Assembly: GCA_014800945.1 (NCBI GenBank)
Contig: JAAVFD010000023.1
Coordinates: 62,001-126,000 of the forward strand
Source: Barnesiella sp.
GTDB lineage: Bacteria; Bacteroidota; Bacteroidia; Bacteroidales; Muribaculaceae
Length of the DNA: 64,000 bases
Direction: 5' to 3'
Of the stretch, positions 58,988 to 64,000 are shown in pieces. The translations under genes and the position numbers were made by a program. Under the pieces are notes generated by a model. That model saw only the letters and a list, made by a program, of their open reading frames with translations. It was not told the DNA's origin and did not search any database. Positions within the stretch are counted from its first letter, which is position 1. Every line of letters starts with the position of its first letter.

Positions 58988-59761
58988 TTATTTGATGTTT
59001 TCGCGGACTCTTTCCAGATAAGATTTCATTGCTTGAGAATCATGTTTTTCCACAATTTCTTTTAATAAGGTAAGTTGTGTGGTGATCTGATCAAGCTGTT
59101 CCGGTGTATTCGGATTAAATAAGATTTCGCTCAGTAGAAAATCATCCTCACTCATCAATCCTTTAGCAATTTTCATGTGACGCTTGAAAGTTGTGCCGGG
59201 TGCATCCTGATGTTTCATCACGGACGCGAACACAAGGGTGGAAGCGAAAGGCACTGACAGAGAGTATGCTATGGTGAGGTCATGCTCCTTGAAAGTGTAT
59301 TCTTCTATATGGAGGCCGAGTCTTGAATACAGATCTTTGAAGAATACTTTTCCAAGACAGTCTCCCTCGCTGATAATAATAGCATTTTCATCGGCGAGAT
59401 TGCTTAATGACGCAAAAGTGGGACCGAACATCGGGTGAGTGCTGACGAACGGATGTCCGCATTCGGCATAAAATTCCGGTAATCCGTTTTTTACCGATGC
59501 GATATCCGAAATAATACAGCCCTTGCTTATATGTGGTAGCACAGCCTTGAATGCCTCTATGGTATATTTTACTGTTGCTGCGTTAATTACGAGTTCAGGG
59601 TCAAAATTGTCAACTTCATCAAGCGATTCAAACCTGAGAGTATGATAAGTAAAGCGAAGCCTTTCAGGAGATGGATCGTAAACAGCAACTTCGTGGTCAA
59701 ATGAAAGGAGGTCGCTGAAAAATGAGCCCATTTTCCCGGCTCCAAGAATAAGTATTCTCAT
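58988..59761 (-). CDS. tyrA: prephenate dehydrogenase
   Basis: 257 residues. NAD(P)-dependent oxidation of prephenate to 4-hydroxyphenylpyruvate, the tyrosine branch. The Rossmann loop ILGAGKMGSFFSDLL (4-18) and catalytic-type His in STHPMFGPTF are visible. No ACT or mutase domain is attached; the chorismate mutase is supplied by the fused protein encoded just upstream (1-base overlap). Last gene of the pheA operon. Confidence 0.93.
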   Translation of the reverse strand: MRILILGAGKMGSFFSDLLSFDHEVAVYDPSPERLRFTYHTLRFESLDEVDNFDPELVINAATVKYTIEAFKAVLPHISKGCIISDIASVKNGLPEFYAECGHPFVSTHPMFGPTFASLSNLADENAIIISEGDCLGKVFFKDLYSRLGLHIEEYTFKEHDLTIAYSLSVPFASTLVFASVMKHQDAPGTTFKRHMKIAKGLMSEDDFLLSEILFNPNTPEQLDQITTQLTLLKEIVEKHDSQAMKSYLERVRENIK

Positions 59762-60843
59762 TATTTTTTTATTCTGTCGTTAAGCACTTCAATTTGCTGG
59801 CGCACGGATTCATCATGTATTGCAAGAAGAATAGTTTTGAGGAATTCAGCACCCAGTCCCATTTCTTCGCCAAGTTTAACTCGTGTTCGCATCACATCAT
59901 TGTAACGGTTTGCCTGAACCACGCTCATACGGTGTTCCTTTTTATACTGACCAATTTCGCGTGAAATTCTCATTCGGTTGCTTAGAATTTCAAGCAGGTC
60001 GTTATCAACTTTGTCTATCTGCTGTCGTAAGAGTGTGAGATTTTCAGTGCTCTGCTTTGAATCACGAACAACGAGGGTGTTAAGAATAAAGTTGAGAATT
60101 TCAGGTGTAACTTGCTGAGACGCGTCACTCCAAGCCTTATCCGGATCACAGTGACTTTCAACTATCAGTCCGTTGAATCCCATGTCGAGTGCTTCCTGAC
60201 AAAGGGGAGCTATGAGTTCGCGCTTTCCACCAATATGTGAAGGGTCACAAATAATTGGGAGGTTAGGGAAACGAAGGCGTAATTCGATAGGGATGTGCCA
60301 GTTAGGCATGTTTCTGTACAGATGCTTTCCATAAGTGCTGAATCCTCGGTGAATAGCTCCGAGTTTTCTTATTCCGGCATTATATATTCTTTGCATCGCG
60401 CCAATCCACAATTCGAGATCAGGGTTGACAGGGTTTTTTACAAGAACTGTTACATCAGCCTTGTTTTCGCTCAGGGTATCAGCAATTTCCTGCATGGCGA
60501 AAGGATTTGCGGATGTGCGGGCTCCAATCCACAGAATGTCTATACCGGCAGCAAGAGCTTCTTCTACATGCTGCTTTGTAGCAACCTCGGTAGCTGTGAG
60601 CATTCCGGTTTGTTCCTTGACTTTTTTCATCCATTCAAGCCCCGGGGTACCTACGCCTTCAAATCCTCCCGGTTTAGTTCTTGGTTTCCAAATGCCGGCT
60701 CTGAAAATACGAATGCCGTTATCAGCAAGTTCGCGTGCTGTGCATAGCACCTGTTCTTCTGTTTCAGCACTGCAGGGGCCTGCAATGATTAGAGGCCGGT
60801 CGGTAGGATATCCTTCCGGTATTATAGACTGTAAATCTTCCAT
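59761..60843 (-). CDS. bifunctional DAHP synthase / chorismate mutase
   Basis: 360 residues. The N-terminal DAHP synthase domain of the KDO8P-synthase-like subfamily (GPCSAETEEQ, KPRTKPGGFEGVG, WIGARTSANPFAMQ, ICDPSHIGGKRELI) makes the first shikimate-pathway intermediate. The C-terminal 90 residues (LRQQIDKVDNDLLEILSNRMRIS ... QANRYNDVM) are an AroQ-type chorismate mutase, probably also serving as feedback sensor. This fusion is known in Bacteroidota. Entry enzyme and branch-point enzyme are thus in one polypeptide in the middle of the Phe/Tyr operon. Confidence 0.94.
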   Translation of the reverse strand: MEDLQSIIPEGYPTDRPLIIAGPCSAETEEQVLCTARELADNGIRIFRAGIWKPRTKPGGFEGVGTPGLEWMKKVKEQTGMLTATEVATKQHVEEALAAGIDILWIGARTSANPFAMQEIADTLSENKADVTVLVKNPVNPDLELWIGAMQRIYNAGIRKLGAIHRGFSTYGKHLYRNMPNWHIPIELRLRFPNLPIICDPSHIGGKRELIAPLCQEALDMGFNGLIVESHCDPDKAWSDASQQVTPEILNFILNTLVVRDSKQSTENLTLLRQQIDKVDNDLLEILSNRMRISREIGQYKKEHRMSVVQANRYNDVMRTRVKLGEEMGLGAEFLKTILLAIHDESVRQQIEVLNDRIKK

Positions 60844-60871: not shown

Positions 60872-62050
60872 TTATTCTTTAGTAATTTCTGCATCTTTAA
60901 GGCGACCAAGTGCTCTAAGCATATTCTCCTTGTTGGCGCAAAGTGATATGCGGATATACCTCTCTCCGTTTGAGCCGAAAATAAAACCGGGAGTGATAAA
61001 CACTCTTGCTTTATATAGGGCATCATCAGCTAATTTTTCGCCGGATTGACAATCATCGGGTACTTTTGCCCAAAGAAATAATCCTTTTTGGTTAGAATCA
61101 AACGTACACCCGAGGGCTGTAGCTATTTCCTCAGCAACTTTACGGCGCTCTGAATAAACTTCATTAAGTTCATCATACCACTCTTTACCGCTTTGCAATG
61201 CTTTAACGGCAGCAAGCATAACAGGTTTGAACATTCCTGAATCAATATTTGATTTGACTTTCAGAATCCAGTTGACAAACTGAGGGTTGCTTGCAAGCAT
61301 TGCTACTCTCCATCCTGCCATATTATGGCTCTTGCTTAATGAATTGAGTTCAATTGCAATATCTTTTGCACCGGGTACAGACAGAATGCTTTCAGGATTA
61401 GGATTCAGGATAAAGCTGTATGGATTGTCATGCGCAATAACTATGTTGTGTTTTTTACCGAAATCTATGAGCTTGGCATATAATTCTTTGTCAGCAGGAG
61501 TCCCGGTCGGCATGTGTGGGTAGTTGACCCACATGAGTTTTATTTTGTCAAGCGGAAGCGTTTCAAGTTTATCAAAATCTGGCTTCCATCCGTTGTTTTC
61601 TGTAAGATCATAAGTGAAAATTTCAGCTTGCACAAGATTGCTAACCGATGTATATGTAGGGTAGCCGGGATTTGGAACAAGAACTCCGTCACCCGGGTTA
61701 AGAAATGCAAGTGAAATATGTAGAATGCCCTCCTTACTTCCGATTAGAGGCTGAATTTCAGTGTCCGGATTCAGGTCAACACCGTACCATTTTTTGTACC
61801 ATTCGGCAAATGCTTGTCTGAGAGCCGGTAATCCTACGTATGGTTGATAGCTGTGATTGCCTTCTTTTGCTGCTTCAGCTGCCAGTGTGGTTATTACTTC
61901 AGATGAAGGCATTCTGTCTGGCCCGCCGATTCCTAAAGAAATAATGTCCATTCCTTTGGCGTTCATTTCAGCTACTTCACGCAATTTGCGGGAAAAGTAG
62001 TACTCTTTGACCGAAGATACTCTGTCTGCTGGTTTGATTTCAGATTTCAT
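60872..62050 (-). CDS. class I/II aminotransferase of the Phe/Tyr operon
   Basis: 392 residues from MKSEIKPADRV. An in-frame ATG at 62089 would overlap pheA by 50 bases. PLP Lys is in ELNSLSKSHNMAGWR, with SLGIGGPD, GYPTY, and the Arg in RISLCANKEN near the C-terminus for the substrate carboxylate. Its position between pheA and the DAHP synthase suggests it converts phenylpyruvate and/or 4-hydroxyphenylpyruvate to Phe/Tyr. It overlaps the pheA end by 11 bases. Confidence 0.9.
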   Translation of the reverse strand: MKSEIKPADRVSSVKEYYFSRKLREVAEMNAKGMDIISLGIGGPDRMPSSEVITTLAAEAAKEGNHSYQPYVGLPALRQAFAEWYKKWYGVDLNPDTEIQPLIGSKEGILHISLAFLNPGDGVLVPNPGYPTYTSVSNLVQAEIFTYDLTENNGWKPDFDKLETLPLDKIKLMWVNYPHMPTGTPADKELYAKLIDFGKKHNIVIAHDNPYSFILNPNPESILSVPGAKDIAIELNSLSKSHNMAGWRVAMLASNPQFVNWILKVKSNIDSGMFKPVMLAAVKALQSGKEWYDELNEVYSERRKVAEEIATALGCTFDSNQKGLFLWAKVPDDCQSGEKLADDALYKARVFITPGFIFGSNGERYIRISLCANKENMLRALGRLKDAEITKE

Positions 62051-62888
62051 TTTTACATTCTTTATATTCACCAAGTACTTTGAAGTCATTCAGAAGGGGG
62101 CGCACGGCATCAAGTGCCTGGCGATACCTGACAAATGAATCAAAAGTAATATCAACGTAAAACCTATACTCCCATTCTCTGCCAATGATAGGCATTGATT
62201 GGATTTTTGACAGATTCATGTCGTAAAAAGTAAATATGGTGAGGATTTTAGACAATGCACCTTGAGTGTGGGGGAGAGTAAACACTATAGATGCCTTATT
62301 AAGTTCTTCATCCTTTGGTTTGAGCTCTTGTGCAACGAGGGGATCGGCAAGAATCAAAAAACGGGTGAAATTGCGCTTGTTAGTCTCAATGCCTTTATCA
62401 AGAATTTCAAGATTGTAAAGGTTGGCAGCGAATTCTCCACAAACAGCGGCGTGCCCTGTAAGATTATTATCAGAAATGTCTTTTGCACTTCCGGCTGTGT
62501 CAGTCTTCTCAACAATTCTTAGATTCGGATGTTTTCTCAGATATTGTTCGCACTGCATAAGTGCCATTGGATGAGAATTCACCTCTGAGAGTTCTTGAAT
62601 GAGTTGTCCTTTCAAAGCAGCAAGAACATGAGAAATTCTCATTTTATATTCTCCTATAATAGTAAGATTGCTCTTTCTAAGGAGCTCATGGTTTTGCAGC
62701 AATGCACCGGCAATGGTATTTTCTATAGCCAATATACCGAGTAGGGATGCGTCGGTTTCAAGGGTCTCAAACATGGAGTTGAATGTGTCGCATGGCACTG
62801 TGTCTATTTCCTGTGGATGGAAATATGCTCTTGCCGCAGCGTCATGATAGCATCCGGCTACTCCTTGTATGGTTACTTTCCGTTTCAT
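62040..62888 (-). CDS. pheA: prephenate dehydratase
   Basis: 282 residues. It converts prephenate to phenylpyruvate, the phenylalanine branch. The catalytic domain (1-185) has GVAGCYHDAAARAYF, IENTIAGALLQNHELL, HPMALMQCEQYL, and the TRF-type motif NFTRFLIL. A C-terminal ACT domain (about 200-275) with GALSKILTIFTFYDMNLSKIQSMP should give feedback inhibition by Phe. There is no chorismate mutase domain, unlike E. coli PheA. First structural gene of the operon, preceded by the leader peptide and attenuator. Confidence 0.95.
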   Translation of the reverse strand: MKRKVTIQGVAGCYHDAAARAYFHPQEIDTVPCDTFNSMFETLETDASLLGILAIENTIAGALLQNHELLRKSNLTIIGEYKMRISHVLAALKGQLIQELSEVNSHPMALMQCEQYLRKHPNLRIVEKTDTAGSAKDISDNNLTGHAAVCGEFAANLYNLEILDKGIETNKRNFTRFLILADPLVAQELKPKDEELNKASIVFTLPHTQGALSKILTIFTFYDMNLSKIQSMPIIGREWEYRFYVDITFDSFVRYRQALDAVRPLLNDFKVLGEYKECKNEI

Positions 62889-62904
62889 ATAAACGTGTTA
62901 CATA

Positions 62905-62941
62905 AAAAATCCCGTCGTCAATCAAAGGCGCCGGGATTTTT
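62905..62941 (-). terminator. attenuator terminator between the leader peptide and pheA
   Basis: Perfect 10-bp stem AAAAATCCCG (62941-62932) with CGGGATTTTT (62914-62905), extended by a CG/CG pair inside the loop. On the minus strand it ends in six T then ATG. It lies inside the pheA leader, 35 bases after the leader-peptide stop and 17 before the pheA ATG, so unconditional termination there would silence the operon. Confidence 0.85.
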
Positions 62942-62975
62942 ATCATGAATTATTTATGTTTTATCATTTGATGAT

Positions 62976-63050
62976 TCAGGCACATAAAATCCCGTTTTTA
63001 TTTTTGGTAAAATAAAAATATGAATAACAATATGTGCTAAATCGTTTCAT
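62976..63050 (-). CDS. Phe/Tyr-rich leader peptide of the pheA operon
   Basis: 24 codons plus TGA, too short for routine gene calling. After Met-Lys-Arg, residues 4-14 read FSTYCYSYFYF: three Phe and four Tyr in eleven codons, ending with four consecutive Tyr/Phe codons (11-14). The last codons (Asn19-Gly20-Ile21-Leu22) contain the 9-base copy of the terminator's 3' arm. The ATG is about 12 bases after the predicted transcription start. The composition matches the products of the operon that follows, as in classic leader-peptide attenuators. Confidence 0.82.
   Translation of the reverse strand: MKRFSTYCYSYFYFTKNKNGILCA
62986..62994 (-). promoter_or_regulatory. antiterminator arm of the pheA attenuator
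   Basis: Minus strand CGGGATTTT inside leader codons 19-22 is identical to the 3' arm of the terminator (62914-62906) and can pair with its 5' arm (62940-62932). A ribosome stalled at the Tyr/Phe codons leaves it free to pair, which prevents termination. A ribosome that reaches the stop codon covers it. Confidence 0.75.
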
Positions 63051-63068
63051 TTGTTACTAATTGATATG

Positions 63069-63098
63069 CAAATGTAGTGATTTATTTCTTATTGCAAG
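63069..63098 (-). promoter_or_regulatory. promoter of the pheA operon
   Basis: Minus strand: -7 box TACATTTG (63069-63076). The -33 candidate is CTTG (63095-63098) with an 18-base spacer, or TTTG (63099-63102) with 22. It would start transcription near 63062. Confidence 0.5.
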
Positions 63099-63143
63099 CA
63101 AAACGGGAGGAAAAATAAATAAATTGTAGCATGATTCGTTAAA

Positions 63144-63170
63144 AAAAATCATTTACGTTTAATGATTTTT
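63144..63170 (-). terminator. terminator overlapping the hisS stop codon
   Basis: Perfect 10-bp inverted repeat (63144-63153 with 63161-63170) with seven-base loop. The 5' arm consists of the last hisS codons, and the 3' arm runs into eight T on the minus strand. Confidence 0.72.
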
Positions 63171-64000
63171 ACTGCTTCCTCCGGTGTCACGAGGGTCTGT
63201 GTCCCTTCTGTCATATCTTTCAGGGTCATCATTCCTTTAGCCATTTCTTCCTCTCCCACAAGAGCAACAAATGGAATACAGCGTGAATTAGCGTAGGTCA
63301 TCTGCTTCTTCATCTTTGCTGCATCCGGATATATCTCACATGGAATGCCTTCTGAACGAAGTTCTTTCAGCATCCTCATGGCTGCAATCGCTTCTTTTTC
63401 ACCAAAATTTGAAAACATAACAGACGGAGCTGAAGTCACGGTGTCGGGGAACAGATTAAGGGCGGTGAGAACATCATATATTCGGTCAGCTCCGAAGGAT
63501 ATACCCACACCACTCAGTCCAGGCATACCGAATACGCCTGTCAGGTTGTCATATCTGCCTCCACCTGAAATGCTGCCTATTTCAACATCAAGGGCTTTGA
63601 CTTCAAGAATTGTGCCTGTGTAGTAATTCAGTCCTCTGGCAAGCGAAACATCCAGATCAATCTCGGCTTTTGTTTCAAGTTGTGTCGTTGCACTGATTAG
63701 AGTTTCAAGTTCTGCAATTCCAAGGAGTCCTGTTTCGCTGTTAGAAAGTAGTGATTTAAGTTGATTTAGTCGCTCCTCCGGAGTTCCTTTAATGTCAAGA
63801 ACAGGTACCAGCTTCTCAATCGCCTCTTGAGAAAGTCCTCTTTGGGCAAGATCCACTTTCACATTTTCAATACCGATTTTGTCTATTTTATCTATGGCAA
63901 CAGTAATGTCGGTCAATCTCTCGGGTTCTCCGATAATCTCAGCAATTCCGGCAAGTACTTTTCTATTGTTAAGTTTAATCACTACTCTTATGCCGAGTTT
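63149..64000 (-). CDS. hisS: histidyl-tRNA synthetase, C-terminal part (cut by window edge)
   Basis: The frame is open to the window edge (K-L-G-I-R-V upstream of the GTG at 63982), so this is the 3' part of a larger gene. About 283 of roughly 450 residues are visible. Class II motif and HisS-specific segments are present: INNR-type LNNRKVL near the left edge, ARGLNYYTGTI (His A motif), SGGGRYDNL and GISFGADRIYDVL (motif 3). The C-terminal anticodon-binding domain (from about VTSAPSVMFSNFG) ends EEAVKIIKRK. Confidence 0.95.
   Translation of the reverse strand, partial: KLGIRVVIKLNNRKVLAGIAEIIGEPERLTDITVAIDKIDKIGIENVKVDLAQRGLSQEAIEKLVPVLDIKGTPEERLNQLKSLLSNSETGLLGIAELETLISATTQLETKAEIDLDVSLARGLNYYTGTILEVKALDVEIGSISGGGRYDNLTGVFGMPGLSGVGISFGADRIYDVLTALNLFPDTVTSAPSVMFSNFGEKEAIAAMRMLKELRSEGIPCEIYPDAAKMKKQMTYANSRCIPFVALVGEEEMAKGMMTLKDMTEGTQTLVTPEEAVKIIKRK

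Follow-up and report, generated by a model that had tools for sequence, protein, structure and literature searches.

A predicted Phe/Tyr leader-peptide attenuator upstream of the pheA operon in Bacteroidales, with sensor codons that appear to follow gene content

Introduction

The window analyzed here, a stretch of 64,000 nucleotides from Barnesiella sp., carries an operon of pheA, an aminotransferase gene, a fused DAHP synthase/chorismate mutase gene (DAHPS/CM) and tyrA, and it raises the question of how such an operon is adjusted to the supply of phenylalanine and tyrosine. In enterobacteria, pheA is preceded by an attenuator in which a Phe-rich leader ORF is combined with mutually exclusive antiterminator and terminator helices. 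An earlier note on this DNA had proposed a leader-peptide attenuator in front of the operon, reading both amino acids as the operon makes both, and knew of no described Phe/Tyr counterpart.

Results

Attenuator Parts in the Window

The leader ORF, terminator, duplicated arm and promoter-like element were confirmed to the base where the earlier note had placed them, and Pfam domains bore out the genes of the operon (Table 1). The leader ORF has 24 codons, from ATG to TGA, with FSTYCYSYFYF as residues 4–14. Upstream of it, a TAnnTTTG and a TTTG were read by means of the Bacteroides promoter consensus and are presumably the promoter. The 3' part of hisS, identified by Pfam, lies further upstream and ends about 47 bases before this promoter-like element. 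The terminator (62941-62905), with its T run, stands immediately 5' of pheA (start 62888), and about 16 nt separate its end from the pheA start. The parts list of leader, terminator and duplicated arm held, although it had overlooked a third helix, in which segment 1 can pair with the end of the leader and so enclose segment 2 (the 1:2 or protector helix).

Table 1. Coordinates of the pheA leader and operon in the window.
Feature	Position	Strand	Evidence
Presumed promoter	63069..63102	minus	−7 element TACATTTG 63076-63069; TTTG 63102-63099 as possible −33 element
Leader ORF MKRFSTYCYSYFYFTKNKNGILCA, predicted Phe/Tyr sensor	63050-62976	minus	sequence; kept across Bacteroidales
Segment 1, GCACATA, 5' arm of protector helix	63037-63031	minus	fold, covariation
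Segment 2, CGGGATTTT, antiterminator arm in leader codons 19-22	62994-62986	minus	sequence, pairing energy, covariation
3' arm of protector helix, TATGTGC, over leader end	62986-62980	minus	fold, covariation
Segment 3, AAAAATCCCG, arm common to antiterminator and terminator	62941-62932	minus	sequence, pairing, covariation
Segment 4, CGGGATTTTT, 3' arm of terminator, entering U tract	62914-62905	minus	sequence, pairing, covariation
pheA, prephenate dehydratase	62040..62888	minus	PF00800
Class I/II aminotransferase	60872..62089	minus	PF00155
DAHPS/CM fusion	59761..60843	minus	PF00793, PF01817
tyrA, prephenate dehydrogenase	58988..59761	minus	PF02153

The 171 nt leader had a minimum free energy of −34.8 kcal/mol, compared to a shuffled mean of −24.7 (z −2.6; 3 of 200 shuffles folded as well). 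Pairing of segments 2 and 3 in the window was −13.2 kcal/mol and exceeded that of shuffles at p = 0.010 only, so that the strength of the case rests in the homologues. A sigma-70-type scan of 62700-63300, which used a loop limit of 8 and the E. coli consensus and was unsuited to this terminator and to Bacteroidota, picked neither the proposed promoter nor the leader terminator. At other positions it proposed three promoter-like sites, one of them on the minus strand (63190-63162), and a single terminator-like site on the plus strand, roughly the numbers obtained from shuffles.

Known RNA families were also sought. No Rfam 15 family reached its gathering score at the site, and the whole window yielded one tRNA only. 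With E values admitted up to 10, the leader site gave no supported match (the best score, 21.1 bits, fell short of a cut-off of 43), and the enterobacterial Phe_leader model RF01859 scored 14.3 bits against a cut-off of 55 (E 8.4).

The source assembly is 2.34 Mb in size and 82% complete. Among the best 80 of 587 loci, the nearest named relative of its PheA is that of Paramuribaculum intestinale (87%), followed by other Muribaculaceae, of the order Bacteroidales. A gene for a Fur-family regulator (PF01475; 58440-58949, minus strand) lies directly 3' of tyrA.

Recurrence Upstream of pheA

The set of pheA upstream regions numbered 239, to which the genus contributed 26, the wider family a further 25, the order 108 and named organisms 80 (the best 80 of 587 loci). 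For the family, with 115 genomes holding pheA, only those given as loci were included, and both G250 places were left out. Removal of 15 duplicates and 7 regions shorter than 180 nt left 217 usable regions, ten further near-copies still among them. Leaders were defined as ATG-started ORFs of 8–45 codons with at least six F/Y in 12 codons. Such a leader was present in 177/217 regions, compared to 52 of 2170 dinucleotide shuffles, and it was found in 38/50 Muribaculaceae regions, 90/104 from other Bacteroidales (47/51 families) and 49/63 named-organism loci. When regions sharing an exact 60-mer were merged, 207 were left, 167 of them with a leader and 158 with leader and terminator. In the 60 nt preceding the first leader ATG, the promoter-like TAnnTTTG occurred at 136/164 loci (131/3280 mononucleotide shuffles). 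Shuffle comparisons, here and below, leave common descent uncorrected. The earlier note had asked whether homologues keep the short F/Y frame and the duplicated arm; leader, terminator and matching arm do recur together.

Cultured examples, all with single leaders, include Parabacteroides distasonis MNRFSFTYYFYYFYFSRVRAGVCM, Bacteroides finegoldii MKSFTYAYYFFFYFYFSNKVEREFVCIK and Phocaeicola massiliensis MKALYNTYFFFFYYFYFSNKVKREFVCVR. The whole operon is annotated in the same order in P. distasonis, and up to the DAHPS/CM gene, at the end of the stretch, in B. finegoldii. For these three species, pheA is found on circular records labeled as plasmids (NZ_OY725761.1, NZ_OY725947.1 and OY726023.1, respectively); the first two have further operon genes annotated too, which is odd for plasmids.

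The hairpin could instead be an ordinary terminator, belonging to hisS or to an independent small RNA or small-protein gene, with the F/Y frame as incidental AT-rich sequence. The region upstream of pheA is indeed AT-rich, the end of hisS is near, and a terminator was found in the last 230 nt of 10/40 leaderless regions, some of which hold an F/Y frame that is below threshold or starts with GTG or TTG. However, leader and terminator co-occurred at 168/177 loci (Fisher p ~2e-20, with search stretches not identical and relatedness ignored), and the rarity of leaders among same-sequence shuffles speaks against an incidental frame, as do the mostly synonymous changes in the control codons described below. 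An ordinary terminator also would not account for a segment 2 that matches its own segment 3 at a near-fixed distance, and we consider this explanation very improbable.

The remaining exceptions were nine leader loci of the 177 without a terminator by our filter and 40/217 regions without an ATG leader at the threshold. In six relatives of Paramuribaculum (L015, L016, L018, L019, L021, L022), pheA abuts or overlaps hisS (0–17 nt) and has no promoter, leader or terminator.

Outside Bacteroidales, where 40 of 41 places were used (G514 left out), a leader was found at 25/40 loci (12/18 families), 21 of them with a terminator, in a set that had no shuffle control. Family f119 (L278, L281, L283, L284, L295, L297) showed no aromatic leader at 6/6 of its pheA loci.

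Model R1, run on 59 Muribaculaceae genomes, gave 36 matches of at least 64 bits, one per genome; 32 lay directly upstream of pheA, and the remaining four were in genomes without a known pheA place. Weaker matches (32–40 bits) numbered 13: the one in G488 is also before pheA, one is beside the known G173 pheA leader, that of G489 has an F/Y-rich ORF on the opposite strand, and the other ten have no F/Y leader. A wider role of the element was rejected, since all strong matches with a known pheA place were at pheA and ten of the 13 weak ones were without an F/Y leader.

Switching Helices and Ribosome Spacing

One chance ORF was dropped from 184 leader records, leaving 183 leaders. Their median 2:3 energy was −14.8 kcal/mol with the leader's own arm versus −10.2 with foreign arms, and the own segment 3 outperformed the mean foreign one in 175/183. 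Compared to its own shuffles, 2:3 pairing reached p ≤ 0.05 in 158/183 leaders and gave p > 0.05 in 25/183 (L008, p = 0.60).

Segment 2 began 4–15 nt past the last F/Y codon in 178/183 leaders, compared to 234/915 mononucleotide-shuffled ones, and never more than 7 nt past the leader stop codon (183/183). The earlier note had argued from spacing that a ribosome stalled at the last sensor codon leaves the antiterminator arm free, and the homologues agree: in 147/183 segment 2 starts 8–13 nt past that codon, with 36/183 outside this range. Under strict merging, the counts were 168/173 (4–15 nt) and 137/173 (8–13 nt). Toeprint distances and the ribosome footprint put the leading edge of a ribosome about 8–13 nt past the codon in its A site. 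Consequently, the arm would be exposed as long as the ribosome waits on the final sensor codon and would be masked shortly afterwards.

Covariation was measured on 45 sequences (set A2), hand-picked from 128 diverse ones among 154 that had p ≤ 0.05 and a length of 175 nt or less; the following counts therefore lean to well-behaved leaders. In the 3:4 helix, 96.5% of cells were paired and 20 double-change cells were counted versus 3.7 in shuffles; the corresponding values were 83% and 41 versus 18.7 for 2:3, and 81% and 28 versus 11.2 for 1:2. All three helices exceeded shuffles and slid registers in paired cells, double-change cells and covariation score. Compensatory changes in the 2:3 and 3:4 helices, which the earlier note had put forward as a check, are thus present beyond shuffles. 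Two further measures were not beyond shuffles for 2:3 and 1:2, namely pairs with changes on both sides (reached by 72 and 195 of 500 shuffles, respectively) and further pair types (42 and 38 of 500). The 1:2 helix had weaker support than 2:3 and 3:4. Covariation links segment 3 to each of its two partners, as needed for an either/or switch.

A conserved, structured element before pheA might also be a riboswitch, a T-box or a protein-binding leader that senses the amino acid or its tRNA directly, the peptide being a by-product, and PMC9723704 classes the pheA element of Flavobacterium psychrophilum as a probable original cis-element. We think this hardly likely: the Rfam searches gave nothing at gathering score and nothing supported up to E 10, what is conserved are the codons and the three switching helices, and the codon content follows the gene content. 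Still less probable is attenuation mainly of pheA translation by a hairpin that hides the start, since, despite the closeness of terminator and pheA start, the hairpin has a T run in the 168 leader loci counted above (a T run being required by the search) and the first hairpin of series pairs lies far upstream of pheA.

Proposed Mechanism

The features expected of a leader-peptide attenuator are found together in the sequence: an F/Y-rich ORF between promoter and gene, a terminator, an antiterminator sharing an arm with it, a 1:2 helix, and suitable spacing. The computational case is strong, and in all likelihood the element is a ribosome-mediated transcription attenuator that responds jointly to charged tRNA-Phe and charged tRNA-Tyr and governs the pheA–aminotransferase–DAHPS/CM–tyrA operon. 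When both amino acids are plentiful, the ribosome would reach the leader stop codon and cover segment 2, and segments 3 and 4 would form the terminator. When either is scarce, the ribosome would stall on a Phe or Tyr codon with its leading edge just short of segment 2, which would be freed to pair with segment 3, and the polymerase would continue into pheA. If the leader is not translated, the 1:2 helix would hide segment 2 and termination would be expected. From the parts observed, with their conservation, covariation, spacing and match of codons to gene content, we infer the stalling, a transcript end close to 62905 and the direction in which the system responds.

Sensor Codons and Gene Content

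Codons were counted in leaders whose arm had p ≤ 0.1 (n = 173), and their control zones held 743 Phe and 667 Tyr codons. Over the nine codons that end with the last F/Y, 591/1111 single-base codon changes were synonymous (53%; 15% expected), and swaps between F and Y made up 345 of the 520 non-synonymous single changes (471 non-independent pairs). The synonymous excess and these swaps indicate that the frame is kept as a coding sequence and that F and Y are interchangeable in it.

Both F and Y occurred in the last six codons of 168/173 leaders. The five with F only were L137, L141 (f24), L160 (f15), L204 (f34) and L212 (f89), and a sixth, L205 (f34), lies outside the arm filter. We obtained downstream sequence for 60 loci, consisting of the Phe-only ones and f24 relatives and then mostly one per family, chosen blind to the downstream genes; 58 had a leader. 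A pheA was called solo if no aminotransferase, DAHPS/CM or TyrA match was found in up to 7 kb, where TyrA was sought by the window's protein only and divergent forms (e.g., that of G258) were missed. The more F/Y-rich leader was taken from series pairs. Tyr was absent from the last ten codons before solo pheA (6/6) and present at least once before pheA with DAHPS/CM (52/52), a difference with a Mann–Whitney p of 3e-5 by locus and 5e-4 by family (4 vs. 44 families), ancestry ignored. Family f15 contains both kinds. In the L212 leader, codon 2, which is outside the control zone, encodes Tyr, and L216, which stands before an operon, has none in its last six codons (trailing Phe) and two in its last ten. 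Outside the test, L209 (G484, f89) is a weak counter-example, with one Tyr in a sub-threshold leader, MITVNTIRFFFYFKMEA, and with the DAHPS/CM of that genome on contigs other than that of pheA.

In three of the solo-pheA families, the genes split off from pheA have Tyr-rich leaders of their own (e.g., MIKNISVFAYFYYYFYFSKK and MNNTFGYYAFYYYFFYNN). The split-off sets are aminotransferase–DAHPS/CM–tyrA in f24, tyrA–DAHPS/CM in f15, and a set with the aminotransferase first in f89; in f34, the DAHPS gene is at contig starts. At the f24 and f15 leaders, a terminator is present and the matching arm pairs strongly (−16 to −21 kcal/mol). Each f89 split-off locus has two Tyr-rich leaders, of which the first terminators alone passed the filter, with arms of −12.4 and −7.9 kcal/mol. 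The proposal that the sensor reads both amino acids as the operon makes both is supported by these Phe-only leaders at solo pheA and Tyr-rich leaders at split-off Tyr genes, suggesting that leader codon content follows gene content.

Tryptophan codons were also seen. They occur ten times in the control zones of the 173 leaders, inside those of L175, L180, L181, L190, L193, L199, L206, L208, L215 and L223; several leaders outside Bacteroidales have them too, and by eye they were noted in the control zones of L276, L277, L286 and L296. Upstream of the split-off aminotransferase gene of f89 (L420, L421), three of the four Tyr-rich leaders include a Trp codon. It is suggestive only, but Trp may perhaps be read too, as the operon holds a DAHP synthase.

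Attenuators in Series

At 15 loci in 10 families (L135, L136, L139, L150, L164, L169, L185-L187, L192, L193, L200, L208, L218 and L234), a pair of F/Y leaders was found, both followed by a terminator of their own. L138 is a further pair by eye, its first terminator having been missed by the T-run filter. In 13/15 pairs, both leaders prefer their own segment 3 over that of the partner; L200 and L218 do not. The first terminator and the second ATG are 13–60 nt apart in 15/15 pairs, and TAnnTTTG is absent from all 15 gaps, that of L192 holding a looser match too near the ATG to serve. With such short gaps and no TAnnTTTG in them, one promoter probably serves both units, which makes them gates in series. 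Two leaders also occur at two loci outside Bacteroidales (family f152).

Taken across these loci, the sequences make it reasonably probable that an old attenuator family guards aromatic synthesis in much of the Bacteroidia. Its sensor would have been rewritten with the operon (F and Y before operons, Phe-only at solo pheA, Tyr-rich at split-off tyr genes), and in ten of the Bacteroidales families sampled two F/Y attenuators, mostly with separate arms, would act in series on one leader as two same-signal gates. If so, two such gates should make the response steeper and less leaky, and the pairs offer a way to study their effect on the steepness of the starvation response.

Discussion

The element resembles the enterobacterial pheA attenuator (RF01859) in its F-rich leader ORF, its exclusive helices and its place before pheA. 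It differs in that the Bacteroidales leaders have Tyr codons nearly as often as Phe codons, and in that the operon adds DAHPS/CM and tyrA. Bacteroid-trp (RF01692), a candidate cis-element for Trp, is from the same phylum as the pheA leader and differs in its amino acid. Its model matched neither the site nor the genome of the window, the genome being scanned with stricter filters, and exceeded its cut-off in 5/99 Bacteroidales genomes under such filters. Attenuators in Bacteroidetes/Chlorobi are reportedly mentioned by Vitreschak et al. (2004).

As to the view that no Phe/Tyr counterpart was described, it stands for the sensor, which we did not find described in the open-licence literature, and needs qualifying for the element as such. 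In 2005, a putative attenuator was tabulated, from Merino's website, before pheA > hisHb > aroAIb-aroQ > tyrA of Bacteroides thetaiotaomicron and associated with tyrA (PMC1173090, Table 7). This is the same operon in the same bacterial order, and the tabulated attenuator is very probably the same element as that of the window; the table line itself is silent on any leader peptide, on an amino-acid sensor, on distribution and on tandem forms. A 2021 study placed a structured 5' element without an Rfam hit before pheA in F. psychrophilum and other Flavobacteriaceae, and referred to strong indications of leader-peptide attenuation in front of amino-acid operons (PMC9723704). Gene and phylum agree with ours; for pheA, the text covered names neither a peptide nor a sensor nor a structure. 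Small ORFs reminiscent of leader peptides have been noted in 5' UTRs of B. thetaiotaomicron (PMC7366714), and Bacteroid-trp itself appears as a table line in PMC2864571.

More distant likenesses are also on record. Before aroF in Acholeplasma, uORFC-13-1 is a candidate Phe-reading uORF with a terminator (24 examples, at least one Phe codon; PMC8632094). It likewise targets a DAHP synthase gene, in another phylum, and is likened here by its published description. In the Salmonella mgtCBR leader, two ORFs with attenuators respond to differing signals, ATP and proline (PMC3641672), whereas both members of the Bacteroidales pairs are F/Y-rich and would be expected to respond to the same signal. 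In the open-licence literature, to which the search was confined, we found neither a Phe/Tyr leader described for Bacteroidota, nor sensor retuning, nor a same-amino-acid series pair of leader-peptide attenuators; the portions covered of PMC2864571, PMC1273637, PMC2965389, PMC8632094, PMC4833913 and PMC1183508 likewise contained no Phe/Tyr leader or same-signal pair.

In kind, this is a classical attenuator that had already been hinted at. It stands above the ordinary in three respects: its wide spread, a sensor that is retuned along with gene content, and the pairing of units in series. The last two, and the Phe/Tyr sensor, are the parts not found described in the open-licence literature. For a major gut phylum in which attenuation by leader peptides had only been hinted at in the literature covered, it would provide a specific and easily tested system controlling the synthesis of Phe and Tyr, and it would imply close coupling of transcription and translation in Bacteroidota. 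The match of codons to operon is a natural experiment, which suggests that the codons of the leader track the products of the genes behind it.

Two minor observations concern pheA itself. A Muribaculaceae-like pheA locus, nearly identical upstream to L030, is found in a record titled Lachnospiraceae (L055, JAMPGZ010000024.1), probably a mislabeled or mixed assembly. Among Muribaculaceae genomes at least 90% complete, a pheA match was obtained in only 115/226 (plus the window's own genome), which suggests that Phe auxotrophy is frequent in the family.
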